From positions 1 through 38,486 of IMG/VR virus record IMGVR_UViG_3300030380_000805: DNA of 38,486 nucleotides. One strand, 5' to 3'. This stretch comes from a virus. A program made the translations under genes and the position numbers. The first letter of the stretch is position 1. Each line of letters starts with the position of its first letter. Of this stretch, positions 14,801-38,379 are shown piece after piece. Below the pieces are notes generated by a model, which was not told the DNA's origin, did not search any database, and was given only the letters and a program-made list of their open reading frames with translations.

Positions 14801-15425
14801 GATTCTTAGTTTCGTCATCCGCTTTTTGGTGATGACGGTCTAGCGCATCCTGATCTCTTAAAAAATCTTTTTCTGCAAACCTTTTTGCAAGAGCGATTGA
14901 GAAAAATTCTGCATAACCAGGGTGCTCTGCGATAGAAATCTCATCAGCGTCTAGAAGCTTGTCAAACTGACCCTTTAGCTCTCTAATTGTGTTAACACCA
15001 GTGAGGTCTACAAGGTTGGCAATCTTTGTGCCTAACTTTCGAGCCTCTTCTTCTAGGCGGGATGCTTCACGCTCAGCGTCTAAACGATCGCGCCTGCTCA
15101 AAGCCTCAGCCTCTTTCCTAAGGCGATCCGCCCTGTCTAGCTTAGCCTGACGCTCAGCTTCTAACCTCCTCTGCTCTTGATCCTCCCTTCGTTCAAACTG
15201 TTTTTGGGCCGTACCTAGATCGGCAAGAGACCTAGAAAACTGTCCCAGGGATGAAGCCAGATTTTGAAGATCTAGCGCATCCTGATTGCTTACTGGCGTG
15301 GGCGCAATCGGCGCTACAGGCGCTTGCGGCATTCCAGCAGAGCCAGGAGTGACAGAAGTATCTACAGGTCTTGCTACTACCTGCGTAAACGGAGTAGGCT
15401 CGTTAGGCCGTCGTCTTGTAGCCAT
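11889..15425 (-). CDS. 15: Internal virion protein C (T7 gp15-like), long
   Basis: This 1178-residue protein sits in the gene 15 position and is much longer than T7 gp15 (747). The N-terminus is Pro-rich and disordered-looking (residues 1-47), followed by a strongly charged coiled coil (about 75-135, rich in EAERQAKLDRADRLRKEAEA). The rest is mostly helical and polar, as in the ejection proteins. Together with 14 and 16 it would form the internal core and the periplasmic ejection tunnel. The call rests on position and general character; no short signature motif is available. The start has GGAGG nine bases upstream and overlaps the gene 14 stop. Hand-counted GC is only 21/60 at 13441-13500. 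Confidence 0.8.
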   Translation of the reverse strand: MATRRRPNEPTPFTQVVARPVDTSVTPGSAGMPQAPVAPIAPTPVSNQDALDLQNLASSLGQFSRSLADLGTAQKQFERREDQEQRRLEAERQAKLDRADRLRKEAEALSRRDRLDAEREASRLEEEARKLGTKIANLVDLTGVNTIRELKGQFDKLLDADEISIAEHPGYAEFFSIALAKRFAEKDFLRDQDALDRHHQKADDETKNPNWFTKWYSGKTEDTISSLPDWIPDKDAFSDAYLQARNTKSDRLVVLHSRFLKKQQLTTEQTNLEVDVHEALSSMLEDEKLNASVIADGITSLLDVQRRDSLSSASQAKQTVANAFLSFIKTRESSDEIDDLLEVIELIQTGPEGTLPRSAFLSGEIKVKFDNEILPEIRKIQDNLDKQQVAEVFNANVNFLNGQFLDSFTQQIQQEGFNVERLVDGGSQKLREILNLKGTPSQEDLGIYQILRSLNARVEGNSLKISSGEKTAIIDLQKIAEESMRIAVSKDMVLTLAQVKKNKLYENFSPANKELIARALSIRNLNANASSIKTEVERLLTGDYGSNVEEGVENLKAALEVYRALRGNKDSNPNLAKDVLGSDNLRLLQIVLNLNEQDQDPSLKNINTLFGKIRDGSFSKEIIDAKLGDSFGGSSSTVQDEIENQISKPENIAKLSSVLGASFGGRAQPRFQVIQLARIFYAVGGVEPKEAVNMAMAALQEDLVEVEGSFFPAELLTRTTSTGDSPLMQKNPNWIPPTTEEKQARKEQQKKRKEHEENLKNYYEILSKSAGVRVSFQQFTPPEPASYGERLSELQDKLRRGEVDASYLEPFLTDGKGNFVSPNIRRTDGLLPDSSEAKFFDKQNEYLDRVENLTKSGNYKDGVEQKRLLMYLHKLSLGSKTKTVRTTDAFGFRTGSKTVPVDTIPPNAWRELGFEDPSGMRFKRHMQALEKAGLIETNKVNEFKLPRLLGDPTKKRYVVDYQAVTPAKLGKFEAKLTKEFLDYSSKLFNAENKLRVSEGLQPLPMNELSRRIGSGRATKVPDNPFPVYESTVDFEVDVLRQDPGNFSGVELLRKATKAVRMGTAIVGEKGVASDIYQEILNNANANQRDSFVIVPVPGLIEGGTKSAMNRFVVKVKRFNSSVLSIVDRDNTNDHTYSTEEIVALARAFENTPKDKRVRSEFSFKGSGYGDRFEASMGQ

Positions 15426-16156
15426 TATGCGAAACCTCCGCCAGAGCCAATCGGGTTAAAGCCGGGAGGCGACACGCTTGGTGTTGGGTTGAAAGTAGAA
15501 GGAGTAGGGTCTTTTAGTCTGTAAGAGTTTGCGGCGGCACCTAGAGCACCGCTAAGACCTTGAAACAAGTAAGGCAACATACTGGGCGATTGGACCTGAG
15601 CCACGGGCTGTGCAGGATCAATTGGAGCCATGGGAGCCGGAAGAGCAGCGTTGACTCGGCTCTGAGCTTGTGCCTGCATTGACAGCATATCCCTCGCACT
15701 TTGCCTAAACTGAGCGTCTAGGTTTCTGTATGCGGTTTGTTTCTGCCGAGCAATGGCTAGTTCATATTGCTGTTGAGCTAGACGGAACGAGTTTCCGCCT
15801 CCAGTGCCCGCTCGCTGAGCGCGTAGCTGAGACAAGCCTTGTTGGTTTGAAGTGTCGTAAGCAGCCGTTTGCTCCATGGACTGCCTCCTCTGTTGGTCAA
15901 GCCTTTCAAGCATTGCAGCAAACTGACCCGTCAAGCTTTTTTGAGTAGACGAAGCAAATTGATTATACCTTTCTTCCTGCCACTTGCCTAGCTCTTGCTG
16001 ATATTCAACTGCTTGGTTGTATCTTTCATTATTGTAAATGGCTTGTCTACGAGCATTTTCAGCGGCATTTTCAGCGCCTTGCCTAGCCGCTCGGCCCGAA
16101 CTTACAGCCCCTCCGACTGCCGCGATTCCCGAAGCAATACTTACAGGCTCACACAT
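15425..16156 (-). CDS. 14: Internal virion protein B (T7 gp14-like)
   Basis: The 243-residue protein (T7 gp14 is 196) begins MCEPVSIASGIAAVGGAV, a short hydrophobic, Gly/Ala-rich segment like the membrane-active N-terminus of gp14. A long Gln/Ala-rich helical region follows (about 25-175, for example NERYNQAVEYQQELGKWQEE), then a Pro-rich tail. In T7, gp14 inserts in the outer membrane and forms the first part of the ejection channel. It lies between genes 13 and 15 and overlaps the end of 13 by eight bases, with GAGG upstream of the ATG. Confidence 0.85.
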   Translation of the reverse strand: MCEPVSIASGIAAVGGAVSSGRAARQGAENAAENARRQAIYNNERYNQAVEYQQELGKWQEERYNQFASSTQKSLTGQFAAMLERLDQQRRQSMEQTAAYDTSNQQGLSQLRAQRAGTGGGNSFRLAQQQYELAIARQKQTAYRNLDAQFRQSARDMLSMQAQAQSRVNAALPAPMAPIDPAQPVAQVQSPSMLPYLFQGLSGALGAAANSYRLKDPTPSTFNPTPSVSPPGFNPIGSGGGFA

Positions 16157-16604
16157 TACTTAACCTCGCAAACTCGTAAAAGGGTAGTTGTTTAGGTCCG
16201 TGACTTACTTTTCTAATAAAAGAAAATCCAAGCCAACGAAGCCATTTGATATGAACTGTATTTTCTGCATGAACCAGATTACATACCATATCGTAAGGCT
16301 CTAATAAGAAAGGTAAAAAACGTCGAGACCACCTTAAAAAGGCGATCGGGTTTGTGTCAATAGCATCTGTGCCGAGCAGCCATATTGCGCCGACATTGTC
16401 AAACATCGTAGTTACTCCGAACATTGCCCAGACATCCTCTGGGCTTCCAAATGCAAAACAGGTGTCTGATGACTCGTAACTAAGTCTGAGAGCTTCTTCT
16501 GGCTGGTAGCCCCCAGACGCCTCGACTTCTTTTTTGTCAGCTTCGCGCAACCGGGTAGACATGCTGTCAAGGTCTTGCTCAGTCGCCAGACGCACCCAAC
16601 TCAC
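16149..16604 (-). CDS. 13: Internal virion protein A (T7 gp13-like)
   Basis: This 151-residue protein (T7 gp13 is 138) lies exactly between tail tube B and gene 14. The pattern of a GNAT-like fold shared with gp13 is visible: GSPEDVWAMFGVT and GAIWLLGTDAID in the first half, RWSRRFLPFLLEPYDMVCNLV, then NTVHIKWLRWLGFSFI, which parallels NTSHIRFLKTIGAVF of T7 gp13. In T7, gp13 is needed for proper assembly of the internal core. The start is GTG at 16604, overlapping the stop of gene 12 as GTGA, with GGAG upstream. Confidence 0.85.
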   Translation of the reverse strand: MSWVRLATEQDLDSMSTRLREADKKEVEASGGYQPEEALRLSYESSDTCFAFGSPEDVWAMFGVTTMFDNVGAIWLLGTDAIDTNPIAFLRWSRRFLPFLLEPYDMVCNLVHAENTVHIKWLRWLGFSFIRKVSHGPKQLPFYEFARLSNV

Positions 16605-24792: not shown

Positions 24793-25121
24793 TCCGTATA
24801 GTCACCCGTTTTCTCAGTGTTATAAGCGTAAAGCAAAATGCTGTAATTAATTAGGTCAGTAACGGTATCCTTCAAAGCTTCGTCTGCAACTTCAAACCTT
24901 CCGTTCTTTGCAAAAGTAATTAACCTAGACATCTTGTCTGTCATTCTGACTAGAAATCCAGTTGTTGTATCGGTGATTCCCAGGCTTTCTACCCTTGTGA
25001 AGTTTAGGAATGCCTGGTTGTCGTCCTTACCTCCGCTGTAATCGTGGTTTTTTCTCTTCATCAAACTCCACGCGTGTGAGCACAGAGTATCGTGGATCGA
25101 AAGTAGTTGGTCTCTATTCAT
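24789..25121 (-). CDS. Nmad1/DUF1599-like nucleotide-associated protein
   Basis: This 110-residue, mainly helical protein shows the pattern K-x-x-DY near residues 24-29 (RKNHDYSG), R-M-x-D-K at 59-63, and an acidic motif EALKDTVTDLINYSILLYAY at 81-100. That pattern fits the nucleotide-modification-associated domain 1 (formerly DUF1599), which resembles MazG-like helical nucleotide-binding proteins (from memory). It follows the exonuclease gene and overlaps it by eight bases, with GGAG before the ATG. A role in nucleotide pools during replication is plausible; the exact reaction is unknown. Confidence 0.6.
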   Translation of the reverse strand: MNRDQLLSIHDTLCSHAWSLMKRKNHDYSGGKDDNQAFLNFTRVESLGITDTTTGFLVRMTDKMSRLITFAKNGRFEVADEALKDTVTDLINYSILLYAYNTEKTGDYTE

Positions 25122-25857
25122 CAGGACTCCAAAGTTTAACTGTCTCAGTCATAAGATCATACTCACCGTATCGAAGAATTCTAGCTACCCTAGCTTGCAG
25201 AAGGGCGTCGTCACTCGAAAGAGATTTGGATTCGTAAATCTTCACGACCCCCTGCCAGTTGGGACATTCTTTCAGCATGCGCTCTGCACGAACTGGACCG
25301 ATGCCCGGACAACCGCTGTATCCATCCACAGGGTCGCCAGCGACTGACTGCATCAAGTGATTGAAGTCCGCTTGCTCGCGACTGACCTCGACTACGCCGT
25401 CCTCTGGGTGATTAGGATTAAAGTGAAAACCAGGAACTGTTTTAAGGTCTTTGTCAATAGTTACTACAATGTCCTCAGTTTTCTTTTTGGGGTCAGTGGC
25501 GTGAATCCCAAGAACGTCGTCAGCCTCCAGGGTCGGCATACAAGAAACTTTGTAAGTCTGCTCAACATACCGCCTAAGGGCAGGATATGTAAGAGGCTTG
25601 CGCTTTCCTTTACGGTTAGCCTTGTATGTCTCTAAAACGCTTTTACGCCAGTTCTGTTTATCGGACAAAGCAACCAAGACTTGATCAGTCTTTAGCACCT
25701 TGTTCATGTCGGCCACCCAGCAGTCAAACTTTTGACGGGCTTCTCGGAAGTCGCTGTGTAGAGTCCACATGTCGTCTCCCCAGTCATGGGCTTGCTCGCA
25801 TGAAGCCGTGACTTCGTATAGAACTACGTCCCCATCAATCAATGCTCTCTTCTTCAT
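25114..25857 (-). CDS. 6: 5'-3' exonuclease (T7 gp6-like, FEN family)
   Basis: The 247-residue protein (T7 gp6 is 300) is a flap-type 5' nuclease. Metal-binding acidic residues are seen in LIDGD (D8, D10), EADD (E111, D113, D114), TIDKD (D135, D137) and GDPVDG (D175, D178), and the helix-three-turn-helix DNA-binding motif is SGCPGIGPVRAERML (181-195). It would remove primers and degrade host DNA to nucleotides for phage synthesis. It lies downstream of the DNA polymerase, as in T7, with two small genes in between. Confidence 0.93.
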   Translation of the reverse strand: MKKRALIDGDVVLYEVTASCEQAHDWGDDMWTLHSDFREARQKFDCWVADMNKVLKTDQVLVALSDKQNWRKSVLETYKANRKGKRKPLTYPALRRYVEQTYKVSCMPTLEADDVLGIHATDPKKKTEDIVVTIDKDLKTVPGFHFNPNHPEDGVVEVSREQADFNHLMQSVAGDPVDGYSGCPGIGPVRAERMLKECPNWQGVVKIYESKSLSSDDALLQARVARILRYGEYDLMTETVKLWSPDE

Positions 25858-26056
25858 CTGGATACCCTCCTCCTTTCATAGCCGTACGAGCAACCTCTAC
25901 CAGTCCTACGCACGCATGGTATGAGCCGCAGTAAGAAATCGTAATGTCCTCGTTCTTTTGTGTCTTTTGGGCCGCTCCCAGAAAGATCATTTCATCGAAA
26001 CGTTCCTGAAGCTCTTTGATCATGTCTTCAGTTGCCGTAAATCGTAAATCGCTCAT
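25835..26056 (-). CDS. Small protein of unknown function
   Basis: The 73-residue protein is acidic at its end (GGYPDEEESID) and has a helical first half (ATEDMIKELQERFDEMIFLG) and a SYCGSYHACVGLVEVARTAM segment. I do not recognise a family. Its ATG overlaps the homing endonuclease stop as ATGA with GAGG upstream, and its end overlaps the exonuclease start by 23 bases. It is probably the original neighbour of the polymerase gene before the endonuclease arrived (inference). Confidence 0.65.
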   Translation of the reverse strand: MSDLRFTATEDMIKELQERFDEMIFLGAAQKTQKNEDITISYCGSYHACVGLVEVARTAMKGGGYPDEEESID

Positions 26057-26517
26057 ACTACCCTCTTCAGTGTTTTAAGTCTTCGACTTATTGACTCCCT
26101 CATGGCCGAATTACTCGGAAAATTATAGAAGGAAACAGCAAGCTGGGCCTGCCTCTTCTTTTCAACCATATACGGTATGATTTTAATGAGGCAAAGCCTT
26201 GCGTTTTGTCCATATAAATTCCACCTAAATACAGGTCTGCCCATTTTAGTTCTACGGGATTCTACTGAGCAGTTTCCCCCCAGAACTTTAAATAGAGTTT
26301 CGATTGTTATACGGGAGGTAGACTGCACATCGAGTTTTAACGTTCCTCCATGTATACCAATGCAGCCTTCCCCGTCTACTAGACCCCCAGACCAAGCTAG
26401 ATCAGTGAGTTTCTGCCCAATTAGAGCCAGTTCGATACTCTCCATCGAGGGGGCATCTAAACCCAAGAACGGTTCCAGCTTGTATGATGGAGTTGACTGC
26501 AAGTTTACCGACGTCAT
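26053..26517 (-). CDS. Free-standing LAGLIDADG homing endonuclease
   Basis: The 154-residue protein carries one LAGLIDADG-type motif, WSGGLVDGEGCIGI (residues 42-55; acidic D48 and E50), followed by TSRITIETLFKVLGGNCSV, RPVFRWNLYGQNARLCLIKI and a basic end. One motif and this length fit homodimeric enzymes. It would cut a specific site in phage DNA that lacks the gene. The frame starts 116 bases inside the DNA polymerase gene, but the core begins only at about the polymerase stop codon (26402-26404). The ATG at 26517 has GAGG nine bases upstream; an ATG at 26445 is an alternative. GC is 20/60 at 26161-26220 against 38/60 in the polymerase gene, a sign of transfer. No intron is needed, as the polymerase C-terminus is intact. 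Confidence 0.8.
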   Translation of the reverse strand: MTSVNLQSTPSYKLEPFLGLDAPSMESIELALIGQKLTDLAWSGGLVDGEGCIGIHGGTLKLDVQSTSRITIETLFKVLGGNCSVESRRTKMGRPVFRWNLYGQNARLCLIKIIPYMVEKKRQAQLAVSFYNFPSNSAMRESISRRLKTLKRVV

Positions 26518-28216
26518 CCGCTAAGTCCTCTCGAACCTGTAGCTGTATCTCATCGTGGATGTGAGCAACCTGCATCACTTCCTTAAGAGTATAGCCACGT
26601 TTTCTTAGTTGATGGTGAAGTATGCATGTCGCCTCCTTCATAGCGATGGCCCCCGCAGACTGGAGGAGCGTGTTCAACGCTGAGTGCTCTGAACGGATGC
26701 GAAGCTTACGACCATCAATACCAATCAAGTGGTCGCTAGTCTGTAGCTTATACTTAATACCGTCAAGAACTTTCTTTAGTGCGGGCATCCTGCTGAAGAA
26801 GGTCGCCTTCATTTGGCTCCCCTCTTCTTGGCCCCCACCTAGAATCTTACCGATCTTCGCGTCGCCCGCGCCGTAACAGAGAGCATATATAAACGTTTTC
26901 GCCTGATCGCGGGTCGGCAAACCCGCAGCTTCCTGGTTGGTAGTGTGGATATCCCCGTCTAGGATCTCCTTAGTGTATGTCCCTCCGTCAAACTGGTGAG
27001 TGTAGTGCGCTAAGCAGCGTAGCTCCAACTGGCTGGCGTCCACACCAACCAGACGGTATCCTCGGGGAACCGTAAACAGGGCTCGGCACCTGTCGCCCCA
27101 CGGAGCGCCTACACGGGGCACCTGGGCGACGTTCGGACCACTATGGGTGCATCGACTTGTCACTGCCCCGCAGGGGTTGACACGGCCATGCAGGCGTCCG
27201 TCCTTCTCTAGGAGGATCCACGCCGCGCCACCGTCAGCCACCTGACCAAGGCGCTTTACTACCGTGAGATACTCGACCAGTAACTTGGCCTCAGGGTAGT
27301 CGAGTTCTTTGAGGACAGCCTCATCAACCTTTGGTTTGCCTGTATCTGTGAAGACTACCGGATCCCAACCGTGCCGGTCTTTGAGTCCTTTAGCGATCTG
27401 ATCTCTAGAACCTGGGTTGAACGGTATATGCTTTTCTTTAGCAGGACCGGCAATCAGTGCAATCCGAGCAGATGCAGGAGCGTCCTTCTTTCTCTCAAAA
27501 CGCTGACCTGTTAGCGGGTTGGTGTAGTAAGCAGGAGTCTTCATCTTGACTACTTCAGGAGGGAACAACGACTCTAGCTCACGTTTCAGCCTGTCCCGCT
27601 CGATCAACAAGTCAGCGTGCAGTCGATTAGCGGCGTCTACGTTGAAAGCGAACCCGTTTCTCTCTTGTTGAGAGATGATTTCCGCGAAGTCGTGCTCCCG
27701 AACTACAGGGGAGACGGGAGGATCCTCCTTGTCGATCCTCTGCCACAGCGCCTGTGTGACCCTCACGTCCTGCTTACAATACTCCGCCATCTCTGGAGTG
27801 AACTCATCCCAAGAACCCTCCTCGGCAAAGTCACCCTTCAGTATCCCAAGTCGAATACCCCACGCTTTGAGACTGTGCTTGCCTGCTAGCTTAGACGGGA
27901 AGTCTGGAATACGGGCATAGTCTTCGTTGCCGATGTCGGGCCACAGCATTCTAGCCAAAACCAGAGTATCTCTAACCAGTCCCTCAGGGCTCCACGACGG
28001 ATACAGTCGTCGGATCGCACGTAAGTCAAAGCTCTGGATGTTGTGTCCGACGATTACGTCAGCTAGACGAAGTCTCTCTAGCGCCTCCTCTGTAGGAAGA
28101 ATCTCAGGGTCACCGCCGTTCTCCGCAATAGCAATGCAGTGAATAGTCTTAAGCCCAAGCAGGGACCGGAAGTCTGAGATCGTGTTTGTCTCAATGTCAA
28201 AGACGATCGTGTTCAT
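26402..28216 (-). CDS. 5: DNA polymerase, family A (T7 gp5-like)
   Basis: From the ATG at 28216 (GGAGG upstream, overlapping the helicase stop as TGATG) the protein has 604 residues; T7 gp5 has 704. The 3'-5' exonuclease shows FDIETN (D7, E9), GHNIQSFD (D64) and YCKQD (D150). The polymerase part has motif A VGVDASQLELRCLAH (D393), motif B RDQAKTFIYALCYGAG (K440, Y444) and motif C HIHDEIQ (D555). It ends GEYRTGSNWAETH, matching the T7 end, so it is complete. The thumb insertion that binds thioredoxin in T7 is reduced here to about 45 residues (about 221-265). An in-frame extension to 28261 has no support. Confidence 0.97.
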   Translation of the reverse strand: MNTIVFDIETNTISDFRSLLGLKTIHCIAIAENGGDPEILPTEEALERLRLADVIVGHNIQSFDLRAIRRLYPSWSPEGLVRDTLVLARMLWPDIGNEDYARIPDFPSKLAGKHSLKAWGIRLGILKGDFAEEGSWDEFTPEMAEYCKQDVRVTQALWQRIDKEDPPVSPVVREHDFAEIISQQERNGFAFNVDAANRLHADLLIERDRLKRELESLFPPEVVKMKTPAYYTNPLTGQRFERKKDAPASARIALIAGPAKEKHIPFNPGSRDQIAKGLKDRHGWDPVVFTDTGKPKVDEAVLKELDYPEAKLLVEYLTVVKRLGQVADGGAAWILLEKDGRLHGRVNPCGAVTSRCTHSGPNVAQVPRVGAPWGDRCRALFTVPRGYRLVGVDASQLELRCLAHYTHQFDGGTYTKEILDGDIHTTNQEAAGLPTRDQAKTFIYALCYGAGDAKIGKILGGGQEEGSQMKATFFSRMPALKKVLDGIKYKLQTSDHLIGIDGRKLRIRSEHSALNTLLQSAGAIAMKEATCILHHQLRKRGYTLKEVMQVAHIHDEIQLQVREDLADDVGKLAVNSIIQAGTVLGFRCPLDGEYRTGSNWAETH

Positions 28217-29811
28217 CAGTTGGACCTCCCAGGAGCATCTACAGTCTCGGGAGCAATCCACTCAGAAAGACGTCCAGTTTGAGTCTCGTAGTCCAGCGTA
28301 GTTGCTATGCCTGTATGCCCTGAATACCTGTTCTTAAGAACACGCATGGACATGAGGTTGCTAGTGCTGTCGTCTTGTTGGTTTCTTTCGCAGCCAATAA
28401 CAGCGTCAGACAACTGAGCGATAGCATGGCTTCCCCGAAGCTGGGACAGGCTGGTTGTTCCGCCTTCCTCGTGTGATCTTCCCTCCGGCCTGCGGAGGTG
28501 AGAAACCAGGATCAGGTGAATGCCAGTCTCCTCACACAGAGACCTGAGCTTCGTCATGACGTTGTCAATCATACGTCGCTCATCACCGTCCTCCAAGGCG
28601 CTGACCACAATGCTGAGGTGATCCAACACAACGTAGCGACACTCCATAGCCCTAGCCATGTAGCGAACTCTGCTGAGTAGATTGGACGGATCGATTGATC
28701 CCCAGTGATCGTATAAAACAAGATTGCCGCCGCCTACTGTGGCGTCGAACGCCATCCTCTTAGACTCGTCCGTAATCTCTCGCTCTTCCCAGAAGTGTGG
28801 AGGCACGTTAAGCTCCAGACCCATGATGTTCTCAGAGGTCTTACGGATACTCTCTTCTAGGGCAATATAGCCAACCTTCTCACCTTGCTTGATGAGGTAG
28901 TAAGCAAGCTCTCTAGTAATGCTGCTCTTACCGATGCCTGTGCCTGCTGTGAGGGTGACAAGCTCACCGCTACGCATGCCAAACAGCTTCTTGTTGAGGC
29001 CGTCCCACGGATACGGGATTGATCGACGAGCATCCTTCTTGATGATCATCTCCCATACTTCTTCGCCAGGAACTACACCGTCTGGTCTGTAGCTCTTGGC
29101 TCCGTAGATGGCATCTACAAGCTCCCTGACCTCACCATTTAGGATGCACTCATTAGCGTCCTTTCTAGGTAGATTAGCAACAATCTTGACCTTGCCTGGG
29201 CTTAGCTGCTGTGCGGCCTCCAGCGCCGCTGCCCGCCCCTGGGCGTCCTGGTCGAAGCAGAGAATGACGCTCTCGAATGACTCCAGCCACTCAAGGTTTC
29301 TGGCGATAATCTTCGACGCAGACTTGGCTCCATTCGGGATGGAGACTACAGGCCACTTCAGATTGAAGCACTGGGACAGGCTGAGCGCGTCAATCTCACC
29401 CTCAGTAATCGTCACCATCTTGCCGCCGTCACGCCACAGATGCGACCCATACAAGCCCGCCTTATCCGGCTTGCCTACCCATCTAAAAGTCTTGTCCTGA
29501 AACCGCAGCTTTTGAGCTACTACAGTCCCCTGCTCATTGCAGTAGTTAGCAACCTGAACGGGCCTCCCGTTGTACGTACTAACGCCATACTTCCATTTCT
29601 TACATGTCTCTTCGTCCAGACCCCTCTTGGGTAGACCAGAGACATCGTACTCAATCAAGTCAGTCACTTCTTTCTCCTTCTTGATGTAGGGTGTGTCTTC
29701 ACCCCGTTCGTAGTATTCACATCCAAAGCAATAGCCGTGGCCGTCAGAGTAGCGAGCTAAGTTATCTTTGCTCCCACATTTCGGGCAGGGCTCGTGTCTG
29801 AGAAACTCCAT
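28216..29811 (-). CDS. 4: Primase-helicase (T7 gp4-like)
   Basis: The 531-residue protein (T7 gp4 is 566) has all parts of the bifunctional enzyme. A zinc-binding domain has C9, C12, C28 and C31. The TOPRIM primase part has TITEGEIDALS (E137) and LCFDQDAQG (D187, D189). The helicase part has the Walker A motif GTGIGKSS (290-297), a Walker B-like YVVLDHLSIV, LILVSHLRRPEG and a C-terminal KNRYSGHTG segment. It unwinds DNA and makes primers for gp5. It overlaps the end of the resolvase gene by 50 bases, with AGAGG before the ATG. Confidence 0.97.
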   Translation of the reverse strand: MEFLRHEPCPKCGSKDNLARYSDGHGYCFGCEYYERGEDTPYIKKEKEVTDLIEYDVSGLPKRGLDEETCKKWKYGVSTYNGRPVQVANYCNEQGTVVAQKLRFQDKTFRWVGKPDKAGLYGSHLWRDGGKMVTITEGEIDALSLSQCFNLKWPVVSIPNGAKSASKIIARNLEWLESFESVILCFDQDAQGRAAALEAAQQLSPGKVKIVANLPRKDANECILNGEVRELVDAIYGAKSYRPDGVVPGEEVWEMIIKKDARRSIPYPWDGLNKKLFGMRSGELVTLTAGTGIGKSSITRELAYYLIKQGEKVGYIALEESIRKTSENIMGLELNVPPHFWEEREITDESKRMAFDATVGGGNLVLYDHWGSIDPSNLLSRVRYMARAMECRYVVLDHLSIVVSALEDGDERRMIDNVMTKLRSLCEETGIHLILVSHLRRPEGRSHEEGGTTSLSQLRGSHAIAQLSDAVIGCERNQQDDSTSNLMSMRVLKNRYSGHTGIATTLDYETQTGRLSEWIAPETVDAPGRSN

Positions 29812-30256
29812 ATACCTCTAAATAGATACAGGGAGAATCGGCAAACTCTTTCTGCATACGAGCGCCCAATAGCTGATCGTCGTCTTTCCATACAACGCCG
29901 TTGAACACATCGAGTGTCTTAAAGTAGTTGTCGATGTCCCCCCTCGGACTTGTCCTCTTACTTGTCTTAGGCTTTACTACGCCAAACACAACGTAAGCCT
30001 CAAGATCGCCACTCAGAGGGAACTCGACCGGCAGTTCCGTCTGATCCAGTAACACTGCCATTTGATTACGGAACGCAGTGTATCGCTTGCCATAGTAAGG
30101 CCCGCCCCACCTCGAAAACCTGGGTCTTGAGGCGGGGACGGGAACTATATCAATCCACAGCCGCCAGAGGTTGCCCTCTCGACGGATGCGAATCTCAGAA
30201 GTCGAAGGGACCGTCTCCCTCTTCGATTTCCTCTTGGACTTCCTTTTGATCGCCAC
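29762..30256 (-). CDS. rusA: RusA-type Holliday junction resolvase
   Basis: The protein shows the RusA signature: PVPASRPRFSRWGGPYYGKR near residues 39-58, VVKPKTSKRTSPRGDIDNYF, then KTLD and VWKDDDQ. In E. coli RusA the catalytic residues are D70, D72, K76 and D91; the matching ones here are D107, D109, K113 and one of D125-D127. It would resolve branched replication DNA before packaging. It occupies the position of T7 gene 3 (endonuclease I, a different fold). The start is uncertain: I chose GTG at 30256 (164 residues) with AAGGAGG about 15 bases upstream, inside the SSB gene; a shorter form is possible. Confidence 0.8.
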   Translation of the reverse strand: MAIKRKSKRKSKRETVPSTSEIRIRREGNLWRLWIDIVPVPASRPRFSRWGGPYYGKRYTAFRNQMAVLLDQTELPVEFPLSGDLEAYVVFGVVKPKTSKRTSPRGDIDNYFKTLDVFNGVVWKDDDQLLGARMQKEFADSPCIYLEVYGVSQTRALPEMWEQR

Positions 30257-30800
30257 TAGTAGTAAAGCCTTCCTCCTTAGAGAACGACCAAGAGTCGAAA
30301 CTGTCTCCCCCTGATACGCTCGACAACTCAATGACCTGAACAGCCTTCAACCGCAGCGTTACCCCAGTGCCTGCCATTGCAGTGCTGTAAGGAACAACCT
30401 CAGCCCCGACCTTGATCTTGGATCCATTGCCAATCAGATCACTGCACGGCTGTCCCTGACTGTCGAACAGGGCTGGACGCTGCTCCCATCGCTCGCCACG
30501 CGACTGTCCTACAGCACGCAGCTTGAACTTGATCTGGTAGTCTCCCGTAGGCTTGCCGTCCTTGTCGGTATCCTCCTTGATCGGCATGGGAGCCTTCTTG
30601 TTAGACTTGCTCTCCCCGCTGGACACAAACTCCTCCAAGACAGCAGACAGCTTAGTCTTGATGTTCTGCGTGTCTTCCTTGTTGAGGATCAGCTTCACGC
30701 TGTAGCTACCATCCTTGTCAAACTTGGTATCGGGCTCGTTGAGGTGCGGCCACAGGGCCGTGCCAACGGGAGTCGTAAAACGAACATAACGCTTCTTCAT
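30195..30800 (-). CDS. 2.5: Single-stranded DNA-binding protein (T7 gp2.5-like)
   Basis: The 201-residue protein (T7 gp2.5 is 232) begins MKKRYVRFTTPVGTALWPHL, has an OB-fold-like beta pattern (SYSVKLILNKED, YQIKFKLRAVGQS, GSKIKVGAEVVPYST, GVTLRLKAVQVIEL) and ends in a strongly acidic tail EEIEEGDGPFDF with a terminal aromatic residue. That tail is the hallmark of gp2.5; it contacts polymerase and helicase. It lies right after the RNA polymerase gene, where T7 gene 2.5 is found at the start of the replication genes. Confidence 0.93.
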   Translation of the reverse strand: MKKRYVRFTTPVGTALWPHLNEPDTKFDKDGSYSVKLILNKEDTQNIKTKLSAVLEEFVSSGESKSNKKAPMPIKEDTDKDGKPTGDYQIKFKLRAVGQSRGERWEQRPALFDSQGQPCSDLIGNGSKIKVGAEVVPYSTAMAGTGVTLRLKAVQVIELSSVSGGDSFDSWSFSKEEGFTTSGDQKEVQEEIEEGDGPFDF

Positions 30801-30810
30801 AACTGTCTCT

Positions 30811-33207
30811 CTAGTTGAAGTAGTACTTACTACTTAGGACTTCTGAAATATTGAGCCGCCCACGGTTGGGCAGGCTCGGCAACGATACACCGGAGGGTAA
30901 TTGAATTTCAAGCTGCTGAGCCAGATTCTGTAGCTGGTCCTTCTCACCGAAGATATCAACAGTTGCTTCTCTTACACTACGGTGCATCAACTCGGCCTGA
31001 GTCGAAAGAACACTGATCGAATCATGAACCGTCATGACTGACTGTATGCCTTCACTCTGAGCGAGATTCATTGTATGCCCTAACAGACCCCCAATACCGT
31101 CGAGGCTGTGGATCCAGTTAGGGCAGATGGCGTTGATTGTTTTGCGGCTGTTCGTTTGCCCGTTAGGTATACGCAAACGATGCTGCCTGAGAACACCCCC
31201 AACCATAGTCTTAATCGTGTATGGATTAGTGTTCTCGTAATGCATCTTTACTAAGAAACCTAGAGGAGTTACCCATCTTGGTATGATGTCGTTCTTAACG
31301 AACAGCGATGCGGCAGATCGCAGCCAGTCCATCCCCACTTGAGCAGACTGGACTACTTCACCAATGCTAGACCAGATTGCCTCTGCCAAGTAGTTGCATG
31401 GTCTATATGTCTCTTCTCCAAACGGGTTGTCCTTACCTGACTTGACCTGATCGTAAAACCATTCAGCAGTATAAGTCCTACAAGAGAAGAACGTAGACCC
31501 ATAGCAAAGAGTCATTGTCTGTCTCTTCGTAGTTTTCCTGTCAATACCAAACTCTAGCCATTTAGACCCGTATGGGTTGTCGTCCTCGAACAGTTTCTGT
31601 CGTACACGGTCGGCAACCTGTTGATAAACATCTTCAGGAACTGCACTGGGAGTCACGTTAGTAGCCAGTGCGGCTATGGGGTCTCGCAAGATCATCGAGT
31701 AGATCTGAAGTCCCTGATTGGTTGCATCCATACTGACCGGAAGCGTTGTTCGGAAACTACGCCCCTGATCATGCATTCGGGCAACCTCCATGCACCCCCG
31801 CGCAAAAGACCAAGGCTCATCAGCGTCTGTCCAAGTCATATCCGACAAAGGATCAGTCCCGACACGCCTGATGAGGTCAATATTGTCTTCTGACCACTTG
31901 ATGCGCTCGTTGTAGGATTTCTTGTCTAGTCCCCAACGAGCAGCGACATGTGCATACAGCCATTTCTGCCCGCTTTCTGTAATCTGCTGGCTTTCGTTAA
32001 AGCTAAGCAAACTCTTTGCCCATTCCGGGCCTTGAGGCTGGAGAAAGTAGGGGATCGGGTATACCCGACCACGGAAATCCAGAGAGACGGGGAAGTAGAT
32101 TGTTTCTGACTTGAACTTTTCAGCCAAGTTCAGTGTCTTCATTACTTGAAGCCGCTTTGACTTGAGTCTTTCGTTGTCAAAGTGCGTCCGCGCTGCTGAC
32201 TTACGCCACTGACGCCTAACCTCCTCATCTTCCTTGATGTTTGGAGGCTTTGGAGGCATGGGTTCGTCCTCAAGAGGAGGCAAACCACCAACAGGCAGGC
32301 TTCGGTCCCAACAATGCTGCAAAAGACCGGCTAACTGTGAGTCTACACGGTAACCAGTGCCCTGAATAATGTTCAGCGCATTGTAGACAAACGGCATATC
32401 CAAATCTGCCATTTCTTCTAAATACTTCTTGTCAAACGTCTTAACAAGAGGGCGCCTGCGGAAAGACTCAGAAGGGTAACCGCCGATGTATGGATTGTCC
32501 CAAGCCATGGGCGTCACAACTGTAGGAAGCCATACAGGGCTTAATTCTTCATTGTATTCGTGGGCACTGGCGATCCACTTGTTTAGCTCCTCTGTAGGAC
32601 GCAGGCTTGTGTAGCTCTTACCCTTTACATCTCTTCTGGTGTATAACTCAACGACACCAGTAGACTGACGCATTAGCTCGATACAAGTAAGACCTACAGA
32701 TGCTGCCGCTTTGCGATCCCAGGAGGGCAGCACGACATCATGGAACTTTACTGTCTTGTTGATGAATTTGGACTTAGTCTTCTGGGATTTGAATCTGTCC
32801 AAGGTTCTGTGGATCTGCTGCCACAGCGCAGGGTGTTCTTCTTTTAGTTTCCTGAAGCGTATCTCGTCTTCAAGAAGACGGCCCACAGTGACGCTCAGAG
32901 ATGCTACTTTTCTCTCAATACTAATACCATCTAAGACGGCCTTAGCCACTAAAGCTGCCGTTACTTTAGTAGGAAGTAGTACTAAGTACTGGTAGGCTTT
33001 GTGCCTTTTACCCGGACTGTTCTCAGCTTTCTTTAGCCAGTCCTGTATCGCTAAGTCTAGCTCGGTTATTGACTCCGATAAGAGATACTGACCTACGGTA
33101 GTAGTAGACTCTAGCGTGTTCTCTCTGGATCTCTTTATCTTATGGTTATACCTTTGCTTTCCAAGGCTAACCATTTCGGAATCTAGTTTGCGTTGCTTGT
33201 CGTTCAC
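30811..33207 (-). CDS. 1: Phage RNA polymerase, single subunit (T7 gp1-like)
   Basis: The protein has about 798 residues (T7: 883). Catalytic elements, counted from the GTG start, are SMDATNQGLQ with D494, RKTTKRQTMTLCYGS with K561 and Y569 (eight apart, as K631 and Y639 of T7) and TVHDSIS with D729. DFRGRVYPIPYFLQPQGPEW and NWIHSLDGIGGLLGHTM are also typical. It ends YYFN where T7 ends FAFA. It transcribes the later phage genes from its own promoters, which I could not identify. The start is GTG at 33207 (GGAG six bases upstream) or TTG at 33219 (GGGAG upstream). Two hairpins lie in the leader. Confidence 0.96.
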   Translation of the reverse strand: MNDKQRKLDSEMVSLGKQRYNHKIKRSRENTLESTTTVGQYLLSESITELDLAIQDWLKKAENSPGKRHKAYQYLVLLPTKVTAALVAKAVLDGISIERKVASLSVTVGRLLEDEIRFRKLKEEHPALWQQIHRTLDRFKSQKTKSKFINKTVKFHDVVLPSWDRKAAASVGLTCIELMRQSTGVVELYTRRDVKGKSYTSLRPTEELNKWIASAHEYNEELSPVWLPTVVTPMAWDNPYIGGYPSESFRRRPLVKTFDKKYLEEMADLDMPFVYNALNIIQGTGYRVDSQLAGLLQHCWDRSLPVGGLPPLEDEPMPPKPPNIKEDEEVRRQWRKSAARTHFDNERLKSKRLQVMKTLNLAEKFKSETIYFPVSLDFRGRVYPIPYFLQPQGPEWAKSLLSFNESQQITESGQKWLYAHVAARWGLDKKSYNERIKWSEDNIDLIRRVGTDPLSDMTWTDADEPWSFARGCMEVARMHDQGRSFRTTLPVSMDATNQGLQIYSMILRDPIAALATNVTPSAVPEDVYQQVADRVRQKLFEDDNPYGSKWLEFGIDRKTTKRQTMTLCYGSTFFSCRTYTAEWFYDQVKSGKDNPFGEETYRPCNYLAEAIWSSIGEVVQSAQVGMDWLRSAASLFVKNDIIPRWVTPLGFLVKMHYENTNPYTIKTMVGGVLRQHRLRIPNGQTNSRKTINAICPNWIHSLDGIGGLLGHTMNLAQSEGIQSVMTVHDSISVLSTQAELMHRSVREATVDIFGEKDQLQNLAQQLEIQLPSGVSLPSLPNRGRLNISEVLSSKYYFN

Positions 33208-33209
33208 CT

Positions 33210-33228
33210 GAGTCTCCAAAAAAGACTC
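33210..33228 (-). promoter_or_regulatory. Hairpin overlapping the RNA polymerase ribosome site
   Basis: On the minus strand GAGTCT and AGACTC pair perfectly around a 7-base loop TTTTTGG. The ribosome site GGAG for the GTG start lies across the loop and the 3' arm. If it forms in the mRNA it would hide the ribosome site, so translation of the RNA polymerase could depend on unfolding or on coupling. The T-run in the loop makes it unlike a terminator. Confidence 0.45.
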
Positions 33229-33234
33229 CCACGA

Positions 33235-33273
33235 CTGTACAGGTAGAAGAAGAAGTAAGAAGAACCTGTACAG
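33235..33273 (-). repeat. 10-bp perfect inverted repeat upstream of RNA polymerase
   Basis: CTGTACAGGT (33235-33244) and ACCTGTACAG (33264-33273) are perfect inverted copies around a 19-base spacer, which on the minus strand is almost pure pyrimidine. Each arm holds the 8-bp palindrome CTGTACAG, so this could also be two operator half-sites for a dimeric protein. It lies in the gap between the DUF932-like gene and the RNA polymerase gene. Candidate roles are an operator, an RNase III site as between T7 early genes, or a weak terminator; the sequence does not decide. Confidence 0.6.
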
Positions 33274-33293
33274 CCGCAGGAATCAAGTGATGA

Positions 33294-34166
33294 CTAGAAG
33301 TCCGCAGCGGATCCTACCGAAGACTGATCCTCGGAATTGCTGCCATGTCCGCTCAACCCGTCAAACCTACGGTCCATGATATCACTGAGAGCCGTAAACC
33401 GCGAGCCTTGAGTCATGATATTACGGCCCCGATCGTTACTTGTGAAAGCATTTAGTAGGGACCAAGCGTTACGGTCCTTGAACTCGGGGTGTTCAGGGTG
33501 CTCCCAGTGCTTCAAGACCTTCATGGTCTGAGCAGCACCGATTACACCGGACTTGGCTGACTCCAGGATGACCCAGCGTGCGTCTGTATCTTCGCATCCG
33601 GTCTGCTTGAACCTGGAGATTCGCTGAGACTCCTTCTCTGCCTGGGTGAAGAGCCCACGGACCGCTGAGTCAACCAGACTGTAGATCATCTCAAAGTGAT
33701 CATCGAAGTCTCTGTTGATACCAACTGTGTGTTTGCGCTTGAATGCGTGCGAGGCACCCATCATCTGCCCATTTGAACACACTGCAACGCGATTGCCTAA
33801 GCCTAGTTGAACAGACTTAGACATGTCGTAGCTGTTTACTGCGCCCACTTCCCATGACATTCCTTCAATGGAAGGCAGTTCAGGGTGCGCGATGCCGTAC
33901 AAGCTGAGGAACCTACCATGCTCAGGCAAGTCCTTGATCTTACCGTTATCCCTGGAGGGGGCTCGGTAGTGGATCGGATCACTGTTCGTAAATCCGTGTC
34001 GTGTAAGAGCCTGCTCGATCATCTCCACATACTGATGCTGTGGGAATGGTCGCCAAGTCTGTGGTCCCTGCACGGGGACGGGCGTGCGCTTGATCGTCTG
34101 AATATCAACGATCTCACCCCAGTTGCCGGGGTCAAACGGAGTCGGTGCTACTGGCTGTAGTGACAT
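33294..34166 (-). CDS. DUF932-like phage protein
   Basis: The 290-residue protein matches the pattern I know for DUF932 (phage/plasmid-like TIGR03299 relatives): NSYDMSKSVQLGLGNRVAVC near 111-130, KRKHT at 143-147, ESAKSGVIG at 202-210, and KHWEHPEHPEFKDRNAWSLL followed by NAFTS at about 219-244. The family's biochemical function is unknown to me; members occur in phages and plasmids near replication or recombination genes. The ATG at 34166 has GGAG upstream. It is the last gene before the RNA polymerase and is bounded by gaps on both sides, so it may be expressed by itself. The C-terminus is Ser/Asp-rich. Confidence 0.7.
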   Translation of the reverse strand: MSLQPVAPTPFDPGNWGEIVDIQTIKRTPVPVQGPQTWRPFPQHQYVEMIEQALTRHGFTNSDPIHYRAPSRDNGKIKDLPEHGRFLSLYGIAHPELPSIEGMSWEVGAVNSYDMSKSVQLGLGNRVAVCSNGQMMGASHAFKRKHTVGINRDFDDHFEMIYSLVDSAVRGLFTQAEKESQRISRFKQTGCEDTDARWVILESAKSGVIGAAQTMKVLKHWEHPEHPEFKDRNAWSLLNAFTSNDRGRNIMTQGSRFTALSDIMDRRFDGLSGHGSNSEDQSSVGSAADF

Positions 34167-34232: not shown

Positions 34233-34496
34233 CTAACCCTGGTTGATCACGTAGACGACGGCACTGCGGTCGGGAAGAGTTCGACGAACGATCTTGAGCG
34301 TCGAGTGCTTCTTTCCGACGTAACGGCACCCACCGACGAACGACCTAGCGTTCTCGTTGAGGTCGTCGCCTTGGAAGTGGACCTCGGTGTGGTGGCCGGG
34401 GCCAGCCTCCAGGATGTCAGTAGCGGCCTGACGTCCCTTGGCGAACTGTTCGTTGGTGAACGTGATCTGAGGAATTCCCTTCTTGATATCAGTCAT
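34233..34496 (-). CDS. Early protein of unknown function
   Basis: From the ATG at 34496 (GGAGAAAGTT before it, an excellent ribosome site) the protein has 87 residues. A start at 34550 is unlikely because the extension overlaps the small zinc-ribbon frame. The sequence PQITFTNEQFAKGRQAATDI, VHFQGDDLNENARSFVGGCR and LKIVRRTLPDRSAVVYVINQ suggests a compact alpha/beta protein with a beta-rich end. No family recognised. A short GC hairpin with a 3-base loop lies just upstream of the ribosome site. Confidence 0.7.
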   Translation of the reverse strand: MTDIKKGIPQITFTNEQFAKGRQAATDILEAGPGHHTEVHFQGDDLNENARSFVGGCRYVGKKHSTLKIVRRTLPDRSAVVYVINQG

Positions 34497-34620
34497 AACT
34501 TTCTCCTGCCCCTTCGGGGCTCTCTTCGTAAAACAAGTGACAGTCGTCACACAAGAATCCTACTCCTTCTACAAGCGTAAGCACTCTGGTAGGACAGCAG
34601 CAGTGCTCACAATGTGACAT
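34489..34620 (-). CDS. 43-residue zinc-ribbon candidate
   Basis: This short frame fills the otherwise empty gap between the DnaA-like gene and the next one. It reads MSHCEHCCCPTRVLTLVEGV then GFLCDDCHLFYEE and a short acidic end. C4-x2-C7 and C24-x2-C27 form a zinc-ribbon or rubredoxin-like knuckle pair. The ATG at 34620 overlaps the upstream stop by 14 bases; the TGA overlaps the next ATG. No strong ribosome site is seen, so translation would rely on coupling. The paired CxxC motifs and the exact fit to the gap support a real gene; its length leaves doubt. Confidence 0.55.
   Translation of the reverse strand: MSHCEHCCCPTRVLTLVEGVGFLCDDCHLFYEESPEGAGESYD
34508..34520 (-). repeat. Short GC hairpin before a ribosome site
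   Basis: GCCCC-GAA-GGGGC on the minus strand, five G-C pairs around a 3-base loop, ends three bases before the GGAG ribosome site of the gene at 34233-34496. It lies inside the zinc-ribbon frame. It is of the same short-stem, GAA-loop type as the hairpins at the window ends. It may shape or protect the mRNA 5' of the start. Confidence 0.45.
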
Positions 34621-34924
34621 TGTTCAAGATCTGACGGTGCAACTGTTCAGCCTTGGACTCATACAACTTTACCAGAGGATGAGGTAGATTCAAGGCTTGT
34701 CTGTTCAGATACATGACGGAGGTATGGTCCCTGCCATCCATCAGATGAGCGATGCCTGTATAGGCCATGTTGGACCGCTCATACAGGAGATGGGCCAGAA
34801 CTTTACGCGCCATCATCAAGTGAAGTGAACGGCCCCTGCCCATGACGGAGTCCCTGGGTATGCCGGATACTTGAACGACGGCTTCGATAACCGCCTCTGG
34901 ATTCAACCAATTCTGTTCGGTCAT
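34607..34924 (-). CDS. Stand-alone DnaA domain IV-like DNA-binding protein
   Basis: The 105-residue protein reads like the C-terminal DNA-binding domain of DnaA alone. VIEAVVQVSGIPRDSVMGRG followed by RSLHLMMARKVLAHLLYER matches the R-x-x-x-A-R...A-x-x-L part, and IAHLMDGRDHTSVMYLNRQA (58-77) carries the helix-turn-helix signature GRDHTxV. D66, H67 and T68 correspond to E. coli DnaA D433, H434 and T435, which read the DnaA box. There is no AAA+ ATPase part. It could bind DnaA boxes in host or phage DNA and block or recruit initiation; that is inference. It lies in the early region, overlapping the gp88-like gene as ATGA. Confidence 0.85.
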   Translation of the reverse strand: MTEQNWLNPEAVIEAVVQVSGIPRDSVMGRGRSLHLMMARKVLAHLLYERSNMAYTGIAHLMDGRDHTSVMYLNRQALNLPHPLVKLYESKAEQLHRQILNNVTL

Positions 34925-35574
34925 TTTCTTCTCATTGCTTTGGTGGAGGCACTGCCCCCGTGGATGGGATACAGGATCGTATCCACAGACTTGGACCAGC
35001 AGGATCTACAAGACCCGCACTTGCCCCCTCGACTGTAGGCTTCGCACAATACAGAGCCTTTCCTCAGCTTCTTAGGGGTGTTTGACACAATCACAGACGA
35101 GTGCTCCGCTTCGCGTCCAAACGCCTTGTGGTCATCGATATTGTCTGCACTCCATCTGACGACAACATTGTCCAGGCAGGCCAACGCACCCAATACCTTC
35201 TCCATCTTAGGTATCTTGTATGACCTTGTTGGAATCCAATGCTGCGTCTCTGGGGTGCTGATGCAGACGGCGAGGATCTTCTGAGCCAGCTTGACGCTGT
35301 AAATGTCGCCACTGTCGAACCATCGGAAGAACTTCTCGCCCTTGATGATCTCGACCATGTCCGACACCCAGCCAGATCGCTGCCAATCAGATCGATTGTG
35401 CTCCCGTGCTTCACGCACATTACGGAACAGGTATCTGCCCTGGAGGGCGTAGCACTTGCTACACGCCTCCGTGGGGCTTCCGTCTGGCTGGCGGGCACCT
35501 GGACAAGTGAACCAAGCAGGCAGCGACCACGATGGGCACGGCATCTTGCTTGCCTTAGATATCTTGACACTCAC
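34921..35574 (-). CDS. Cys-rich protein of the mycobacteriophage gp88 type
   Basis: The 217-residue protein has the pattern of the 'gene product 88' family: MPCPSWSLPAWFTCPGARQP near 11-30, CSKCYALQGRY (38-48), FFRWFDSGDIYS (82-92), then HWIPTRSYKIPKM. Cysteines fall in two groups, C13/C24/C38/C41 and C177/C186/C189/C192 (CGSCRSC), suggesting one or two metal or iron-sulfur sites. No function is established to my knowledge. The start is GTG at 35574 with GGAG seven bases upstream, overlapping the upstream TAG by one base. It is the first larger gene after nine small early genes. Confidence 0.75.
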   Translation of the reverse strand: MSVKISKASKMPCPSWSLPAWFTCPGARQPDGSPTEACSKCYALQGRYLFRNVREAREHNRSDWQRSGWVSDMVEIIKGEKFFRWFDSGDIYSVKLAQKILAVCISTPETQHWIPTRSYKIPKMEKVLGALACLDNVVVRWSADNIDDHKAFGREAEHSSVIVSNTPKKLRKGSVLCEAYSRGGKCGSCRSCWSKSVDTILYPIHGGSASTKAMRRK

Positions 35575-35903
35575 TACTTCTCCTTACCGGGGGATCCCCC
35601 GGATTTCTTTTCCATACGCCTGCGTTTAGCGAGCGCATTCTTCAGCAATCTCTTTAGATTGTTTATGGTTGGTCTGTATGAGGGGACTCCCCCCATCTGG
35701 ACTGTAAGGTCACCGTTTGTCACATACAGGACATACTGCAACCCGTCGTGATCTGCGTCCCACACACGGATGCAGGGTTCTCCGTAAATGCTGTATACCT
35801 CCAGTAGGTTTGTTACAGCATCTTCTACGGATGTATAGAACCTGCGCCTGCTGTGGCTACGCTCATACAGATCGTCGAAGTCAAACACCTCCCAAAGGAT
35901 CAT
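35574..35903 (-). CDS. Early protein of unknown function
   Basis: The 109-residue protein has an aromatic, acidic N-terminus (MILWEVFDFDDLYERSHSRR), a beta-like middle (GLQYVLYVTNGDLTVQMGGV) and a basic tail. No family recognised. GGAGGG precedes the ATG, which overlaps the upstream stop (ATATGA). The last codons contain the perfect 16-bp palindrome CCGGGGGATCCCCCGG, so the C-terminal GGSPG peptide may simply be the by-product of a DNA or RNA element. Confidence 0.7.
   Translation of the reverse strand: MILWEVFDFDDLYERSHSRRRFYTSVEDAVTNLLEVYSIYGEPCIRVWDADHDGLQYVLYVTNGDLTVQMGGVPSYRPTINNLKRLLKNALAKRRRMEKKSGGSPGKEK
35587..35602. repeat. 16-bp palindrome, copy A
   Basis: CCGGGGGATCCCCCGG is a perfect palindrome. 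It lies in the last codons of the 35574-35903 gene, just upstream of the ribosome site of the gp88-like gene. It matches the near-palindromes at 37623, 38201 and 38364 apart from the centre bases. Confidence 0.6.
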
Positions 35904-37449: not shown

Positions 37450-37864
37450 CTTCTTGCTCCTTCTCGATCTTTGCTTGGTGATCTTCAACGATAAGACGCA
37501 ACTGCCTGCAACGAGCACGCAGCCACGAGCCAACCAACAACTCGGGCTCAGGCCACAACTTGATGGCCGAGATCAGCATCGGCAGGGCGCTGGCAGGCAC
37601 GTAGCCGATGACCTGCTCACCTTCGGGGGATTCCCCGGAAAGGTCCACGAACTCACCGTTCGGGTAGAACACGGCCAACTCGAAGTCCGGGGACTCAAGC
37701 CGCTGGCCCAGCTTGTCCACATCTCCGAGCTTCCATCTCGTGTTCCGATTGCTGCAATAGTTGCCCCAGCCGAAAGCTAGCGACAGAGTGTAGCCATTCA
37801 TCACCGTGTATTGGAAACCACGGGAATGAACGGACACAGCAGCGTTGCTGTGCTTGGTAGTCAT
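37433..37864 (-). CDS. Early protein of unknown function
   Basis: The ATG at 37864 overlaps the stop of the first gene as ATGA, with GGAGG upstream; the protein has 143 residues. It has an N-terminal beta-like part (SVHSRGFQYTVMNGYTLSLA, FGWGNYCSNRN), a middle with DFELAVFYPNGEFVDLSG and a helical end (EDHQAKIEKEQEDGRVE). No family recognised. One copy of the 16-bp near-palindrome (37623-37638) lies inside the coding sequence and encodes GESPEG. Confidence 0.7.
   Translation of the reverse strand: MTTKHSNAAVSVHSRGFQYTVMNGYTLSLAFGWGNYCSNRNTRWKLGDVDKLGQRLESPDFELAVFYPNGEFVDLSGESPEGEQVIGYVPASALPMLISAIKLWPEPELLVGSWLRARCRQLRLIVEDHQAKIEKEQEDGRVE
37623..37638. repeat. 16-bp near-palindrome, copy B (inverted)
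   Basis: TCGGGGGATTCCCCGG on the plus strand equals the reverse complement of copies C and D except for one end base. It lies inside a coding sequence, so it is compatible with a protein-binding site or an RNA hairpin within the message. Confidence 0.55.
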
Positions 37865-38200: not shown

Positions 38201-38216
38201 CCGGGGAATCCCCCGG
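38201..38216. repeat. 16-bp near-palindrome, copy C
   Basis: CCGGGGAATCCCCCGG, in the leader of the first early gene, a few bases upstream of its ribosome site. It is identical to copy D over 18 bases (including the flanking T and A). It can fold into a stem with a small loop in RNA or serve as a two-fold protein-binding site. Confidence 0.6.
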
Positions 38217-38363: not shown

Positions 38364-38379
38364 CCGGGGAATCCCCCGG
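38364..38379. repeat. 16-bp near-palindrome, copy D
   Basis: CCGGGGAATCCCCCGG about 45 bases upstream of the -35 element of the early promoter. With copy C downstream of the start point, the promoter is bracketed by two identical 18-bp sites 163 bases apart. Confidence 0.6.

Follow-up and report, generated by a model that had tools for sequence, protein, structure and literature searches.

The window analysed here comprises an entire IMG/VR record (38,486 bases) from a T7-like podovirus in which all recognised genes, those for terminase, capsid and tail included, lie on the minus strand. Upstream of its RNA polymerase gene it carries an intact gene for a 105-residue protein that is almost exactly one DnaA domain IV. 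The reading we lean towards, by analogy and tentatively, is that this protein would act as a sequence-specific transcription regulator together with the host RNA polymerase. This is favoured over a role as a decoy at the host origin, which is possible but less likely. The features on which the argument depends are these:

34921 to 35574, minus strand: upstream gene with a Pfam GP88 domain (PF17338), its stop codon sharing the sequence ATGA with the DnaA_C start codon
34607 to 34924, minus strand: gene for the stand-alone DnaA domain IV (DnaA_C), ATG start, 105 residues, intact reading frame
34233 to 34550, minus strand: small downstream gene without a known family, which also adjoins the DnaA_C gene of the related phage G010 (34% identity)
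33294 to 34166, minus strand: DUF932-like gene (sub-threshold match), syntenic in relatives at 53-56% identity
33224 to 33284, minus strand: hairpin of 21 bp followed by U6, directly 5' of the RNA polymerase gene
30811 to 33219, minus strand: phage single-subunit RNA polymerase gene, downstream of the DnaA_C gene
25114 to 30800, minus strand: T7-type replication block, made up of the next five entries
30195 to 30800, minus strand: SSB (gp2.5-type)
29762 to 30331, minus strand: RusA-like resolvase
28216 to 29811, minus strand: T7-type primase-helicase
26402 to 28261, minus strand: family A DNA polymerase
25114 to 25857, minus strand: exonuclease

A preliminary description of the sequence had placed a 105-residue protein at 34607-34924 without giving its strand. 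The open reading frame is indeed there and is on the minus strand, the plus strand of the same interval being interrupted by stops. GAGAAG lies a few bases 5' of the start codon. Judging from the ATGA overlap, translation of the DnaA_C gene is probably coupled to that of the GP88 gene. The product is basic (pI 9.2), similar to E. coli domain IV.

It is clear what kind of domain this is. The sole domain found by Pfam is Bac_DnaA_C (PF08299), which spans residues 9-72 (E=2.7e-11; 43.8 bits against a curated cut-off of 31.5) with no AAA+ match, and the model matches once in the whole record. The NCBIfam DnaA models match over their last ~75 positions and far under their full-length cut-offs; TIGR00362, the equivalog for full-length DnaA, scores 34.6 bits against 343.9, again with the last ~75 model positions as the matched part. 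PHROGs holds no family for the protein. An AlphaFold2 model built from an alignment of 35 phage sequences has a mean pLDDT of 93.4 and a pTM of 0.85. It predicts a helix-turn-helix at residues 55-77, with helices at 55-61 and 67-77. The signature GRDHTSV occupies residues 64-70 (G64 to V70), and D66-H67-T68-S69 begin the recognition helix. In a Foldseek search of the PDB the best match is 3pvp, the M. tuberculosis DnaA DNA-binding domain with box2 (E=3.2e-4; TM 0.75 by query). The next match, 1j1v, is E. coli domain IV together with its box (E=5e-3; TM 0.70). Further matches are the DnaA entries 8btg, 1l8q, 2hcb and 3r8f, and all high-probability matches are DnaA. The central claim of the preliminary description, an early phage gene for DnaA domain IV without the ATPase, is therefore fully supported by Pfam (above the cut-off), AlphaFold2 and Foldseek. 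A fold lacking the helix-turn-helix, or lacking D-H-T on its recognition helix, would have spoken against that claim; since both are present in the model, this objection falls away.

The residues with which DnaA touches its box are kept. In a list of E. coli contacts taken from PMC9638019 (R399, S400, T435, R442 and K443), to which D433 and H434 were added, the aligned residues here are R32 for R399, S33 for S400, D66 for D433, H67 for H434, T68 for T435 and R75 for R442. K443 is replaced by Q76, and T436 by serine (S69). With these contacts the protein may bind a DnaA box, with TTATCCACA and variants of TTATNCACA as candidate binding sequences. Domain IV on its own has no means of hydrolysing ATP, loading a helicase or opening DNA, and therefore the protein is no initiator.

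Might it nevertheless help phage replication by marking a phage origin, a role that the preliminary description had offered beside competition at the host origin and regulation at phage sites, or by recruiting phage or host replication proteins there? One point in favour is that DnaA_C genes adjoin replication genes in some other phages: the neighbour is a replisome organizer in MW202613, and in L049 it is a processivity factor. These same cases count against the regulator reading. The box counts do not bear the idea out. Exact TTWTNCACA is absent from the window, compared with 2.2 occurrences expected from dinucleotide shuffles. Boxes with at most one mismatch number 21 against an expected 21.7 and are neither enriched nor clustered, which vindicates the caution in the preliminary description that such near-boxes are at chance level. 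DnaA boxes are likewise neither enriched nor clustered in G010, and a cluster of seven in another relative, G006, is an artefact of a 10-N run. A set of 43 phage records that contain DnaA_C has 17 exact occurrences of TTATNCACA in total, the same number as of a reversed-pattern control. A box-based phage origin is therefore unlikely. Moreover, the T7-type replisome of the window phage is complete without DnaA_C, and close relatives replicate lacking the gene. A part in phage replication is accordingly improbable. As DnaA_C proteins show no link with canonical boxes in their own genomes, either host boxes are targeted, or another site is read, or very few sites are needed.

Relatives of the window phage were collected with an RNA polymerase alignment. 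In G010 (L103), with an RNA polymerase that is 73% identical, the same slot is filled by a DnaA_C gene (L103:8122-8502; Pfam E=4.7e-14). It is followed by homologues of 34233-34550 and 33294-34166 and then by the RNA polymerase gene. The two DnaA_C proteins are 28% identical. Their signatures are GRDHTSV in the window and RNDHTTA in G010, with D-H-T in both. The upstream neighbour is a DUF7178 protein in G010 (L103 7446-8129) and the GP88 protein in the window, from which it follows that the neighbouring slot was exchanged while DnaA_C was retained. The DnaA_C slot itself is variable: most relatives have no such gene, one has an unrelated small open reading frame there, and a homologue of 34233-34550 is also found in relatives lacking DnaA_C. 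A record 100% identical to window positions 1-30619 stops short of the DnaA_C gene and is uninformative on its presence.

Such variability might be expected if the gene were a functionless fragment of a captured bacterial dnaA, decayed or hitch-hiking. However, the reading frame and start codon are intact, the gene is probably coupled to its neighbour and the predicted fold is confident. The same-slot homologue in G010 has kept both the fold motif and D-H-T in spite of its low identity. Hence a remnant is very improbable.

The relatives differ in another way. G006, G008 and G011 have no DnaA_C gene, and between their DUF932-like and RNA polymerase genes lies a tyrosine integrase, whereas in the window phage and G010 DnaA_C is present and the integrase is absent, either lost or never there. 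Because the genomes are few, this alternation is a lead only. Integrase genes directly upstream of the RNA polymerase gene lie at L009 5198-6193, G008 834-1883 and G011 15260-16312. In L104 and L102 an apparent tRNA-gene fragment just 5' of the RNA polymerase gene is a possible attachment site. A separate observation concerns a 154-residue open reading frame at 26053-26517, beside the DNA polymerase gene, which is present in all relatives at 44-71% identity and has no Pfam or NCBIfam match; the N-terminal part of its product resembles a LAGLIDADG-type motif (GGLVDGEG).

In T7-like phages the region upstream of the RNA polymerase gene is transcribed first, by the host RNA polymerase, and host-takeover genes are kept there. 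The DnaA_C gene precedes that of the phage RNA polymerase by ~1.4 kb and is therefore early. The hairpin at 33224-33284 (-35.3 kcal/mol; z -8.2) looks like a terminator-like or RNase III-type processing signal that would set the RNA polymerase gene apart from the early ones. G010 has a different hairpin in the same place, at about L103 9925-9995. The early region also contains four copies of the GC-rich palindrome CCGGGGRATYCCCCGG (35587-35602, 37623-37638, 38201-38216 and 38364-38379), when 0.26 would be expected by chance, and the copy at 35587 directly precedes the ribosome-binding site of the next gene. In a 15-bp version, CCGGGGASTCCCCGG, the palindrome has four copies in G010 and about 10 in G006, and it is not found in G008 or G011. 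These palindromes were considered as DnaA_C binding sites and rejected because G006 is rich in them and has no DnaA_C gene.

Full-length DnaA binds oriC cooperatively. Perhaps the phage protein interferes with this. Sitting on DnaA boxes in the host oriC and in promoters under DnaA control, and lacking the ATPase and helicase-loading domains, it might impose a dominant-negative block on initiation of host replication and shut down the genes that DnaA controls. Nucleotides and machinery might then be freed for the phage, and the protein would be an initiator-mimic for host takeover. Several observations are in keeping with such a decoy: the box-reading positions (R32-S33, D66-H67-T68-S69 and R75) are intact, the gene sits where host-takeover genes are housed, the phage genome has no exact box, which is what host-borne targets would predict, and a phage with its own replisome can dispense with host initiation. 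However, the altered signature of G010 means that exact imitation of the host's box reading is not a conserved feature, and a single monomeric domain would have to be abundant to beat cooperative full-length DnaA. Binding to host DNA is predicted here from sequence. The replication effects of overexpressing HdaB (now GafY) in Caulobacter have been re-explained as induction of the gene transfer agent (GTA) (PMC9632790). It is true that the canonical contacts kept here would suit binding to the true DnaA boxes of the host, which counts against the regulator. Yet intact contacts in a box-free phage genome point to host targets generally, and this fits a decoy and a regulator of host genes alike. 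On balance, both the block on host initiation and the resulting benefit to the phage are possible but doubtful.

Which host this might be is hinted at by the RNA polymerase. The nearest cultured relatives by that protein are Pelagibacter podophages, at ~35% identity, and therefore a marine alphaproteobacterial host is possible. No tRNA gene pointing to a host was found in the window. Among the matches listed from genome_contigs, the best were mostly actinobacterial and clostridial DnaA proteins, but they were rejected as a host signal because identity is ~30% over 70 residues.

Although the preliminary description implied that the gene was new, a free-standing phage DnaA_C is common and is routinely annotated as 'DnaA' or 'replication initiator'. 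Two alignment-based scans of viral_contigs yielded 86 viral loci with DnaA_C and no full DnaA. Their open reading frames, some truncated by contig ends, encode 74-391 residues (median 172) and no ATPase. In the alignment scan of genome_contigs, 78 of the 80 loci among the matches listed are full DnaA, and the other two are apparently also DnaA, either misread or truncated where the contig ends. Searches with the 105-residue protein alone returned nothing from either collection, and the only initial INPHARED match, MT836067, is bacterial, with a full DnaA of 453 residues. In the viral structure library BFVD dozens of phage proteins, among them entries from uncultured Caudovirales phage, bear the name 'Chromosomal replication initiator, DnaA C-terminal', gene 62 of Sulfitobacter phage phiGT1 (QLB38274.1) is annotated 'DnaA C-terminal domain IV', and Tenacibaculum phage Gundel_1 is another phage with a stand-alone DnaA_C protein. 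A 'replication initiation protein DnaA' has been reported for Polaribacter phages P12002L/S (PMC4615864). The window gene is thus a short phage DnaA_C reading frame without AAA+, a kind already known from annotation, and with this many annotated cases the implied novelty is unsupported. A literature search found no paper testing a phage member.

The company these genes keep is informative. Among the genes that flank 42 non-redundant copies of DnaA_C are those for helicases, nucleases, primosomal proteins, DNA methylases, GcrA, GapR and NusG-type antiterminators. A NusG-type gene occurs in six of 44 DnaA_C records, each time 0.4-7.6 kb downstream of DnaA_C and on its strand. The chance calculation for this (P 5e-6) is overstated, because the 8-kb limit was set post hoc and early operons are co-directional anyway. 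phiGT1 has the same order, gene 62 (DnaA_C) and then gene 67 (NusG-type). There is no NusG-type gene in the window phage.

This family context (GcrA, GapR and NusG neighbours), together with GafY and GafA as the only tested proteins of this design, is why regulation is favoured. Caulobacter crescentus GafY (CCNA_01111, formerly HdaB), a homologue of DnaA domain IV, was at first believed to influence replication; it binds and activates GTA promoters, and the authors propose that oriC is not under its control (PMC9632790). It activates ~18 promoters, with IHF and sigma70 as partners (PMC9632790; PMC11150451), and works with the antiterminator GafZ, which has a sigma-like HTH (PMC11150451). The core of its site is ACTATG (PMC11150451), too short for scanning. 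GafA of Rhodobacter capsulatus has a DnaA-like N-terminus, and mutating its predicted DNA contacts impairs activation (PMC9638019). Roseophage RDJLphi1 encodes a GafA homologue (PMC6363796).

By analogy, the proposed course of events would be as follows. The operon that precedes the phage RNA polymerase gene would supply the protein at an early stage. As a free-standing helix-turn-helix domain it would bind DNA sequence-specifically, with no ATP binding, oligomerisation or origin opening. Like GafY, it would bind upstream of selected promoters, either phage early promoters or those of the host, and, acting with the host RNA polymerase, would alter their activity before transcription passes to the phage enzyme. 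Regulation and the choice of partner polymerase are what we infer here from the precedent. A point against them is that neither a binding site nor a target promoter was found. Roles other than those weighed here are, taken together, improbable.

What are the consequences for annotation? The only characterised proteins of this design, GafY and GafA, are transcription activators, and given equal counts of boxes and controls over 43 phage records, the 'replication' label on phage DnaA_C genes is unsafe. With all box contacts intact in a 105-residue protein, and with a genome that lacks an exact box, the window phage offers a clean case for telling a regulator from a host-origin decoy.

How does the protein compare with known systems? 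Other stand-alone phage DnaA_C proteins have the same single domain IV without AAA+ and are usually encoded among the early or DNA-metabolism genes. Most are 115-250 residues long with extra N-terminal parts, whereas the window protein is a nearly bare domain, and it belongs to a T7-like phage with its own RNA polymerase; its identity to them is about 20-36%. Bacterial DnaA domain IV (1j1v, 3pvp) shares the fold, the helix-turn-helix and the equivalents of R399/S400, D433, H434, T435 and R442, but bacterial DnaA has domains I-III, which the phage protein lacks. GafY and GafA resemble it in having a DNA-binding part of the DnaA domain IV type, no ATPase and a setting in a phage-like element, a likeness that lies in domain type and published descriptions. 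GafY pairs with GafZ and IHF, whereas the window phage has no recognised GafZ-like partner: Pfam scans of the neighbours gave GP88, a weak DUF932 and no match for 34233-34550, and no GafZ/DUF6456-type partner. Since a NusG-type gene is also missing and the phage has its own RNA polymerase, the parallel with GafY holds for domain type only. GafA has changed some of the canonical contacts, for example to E8 in place of R399 (PMC9638019), whereas the window protein keeps the canonical DnaA-box contacts.
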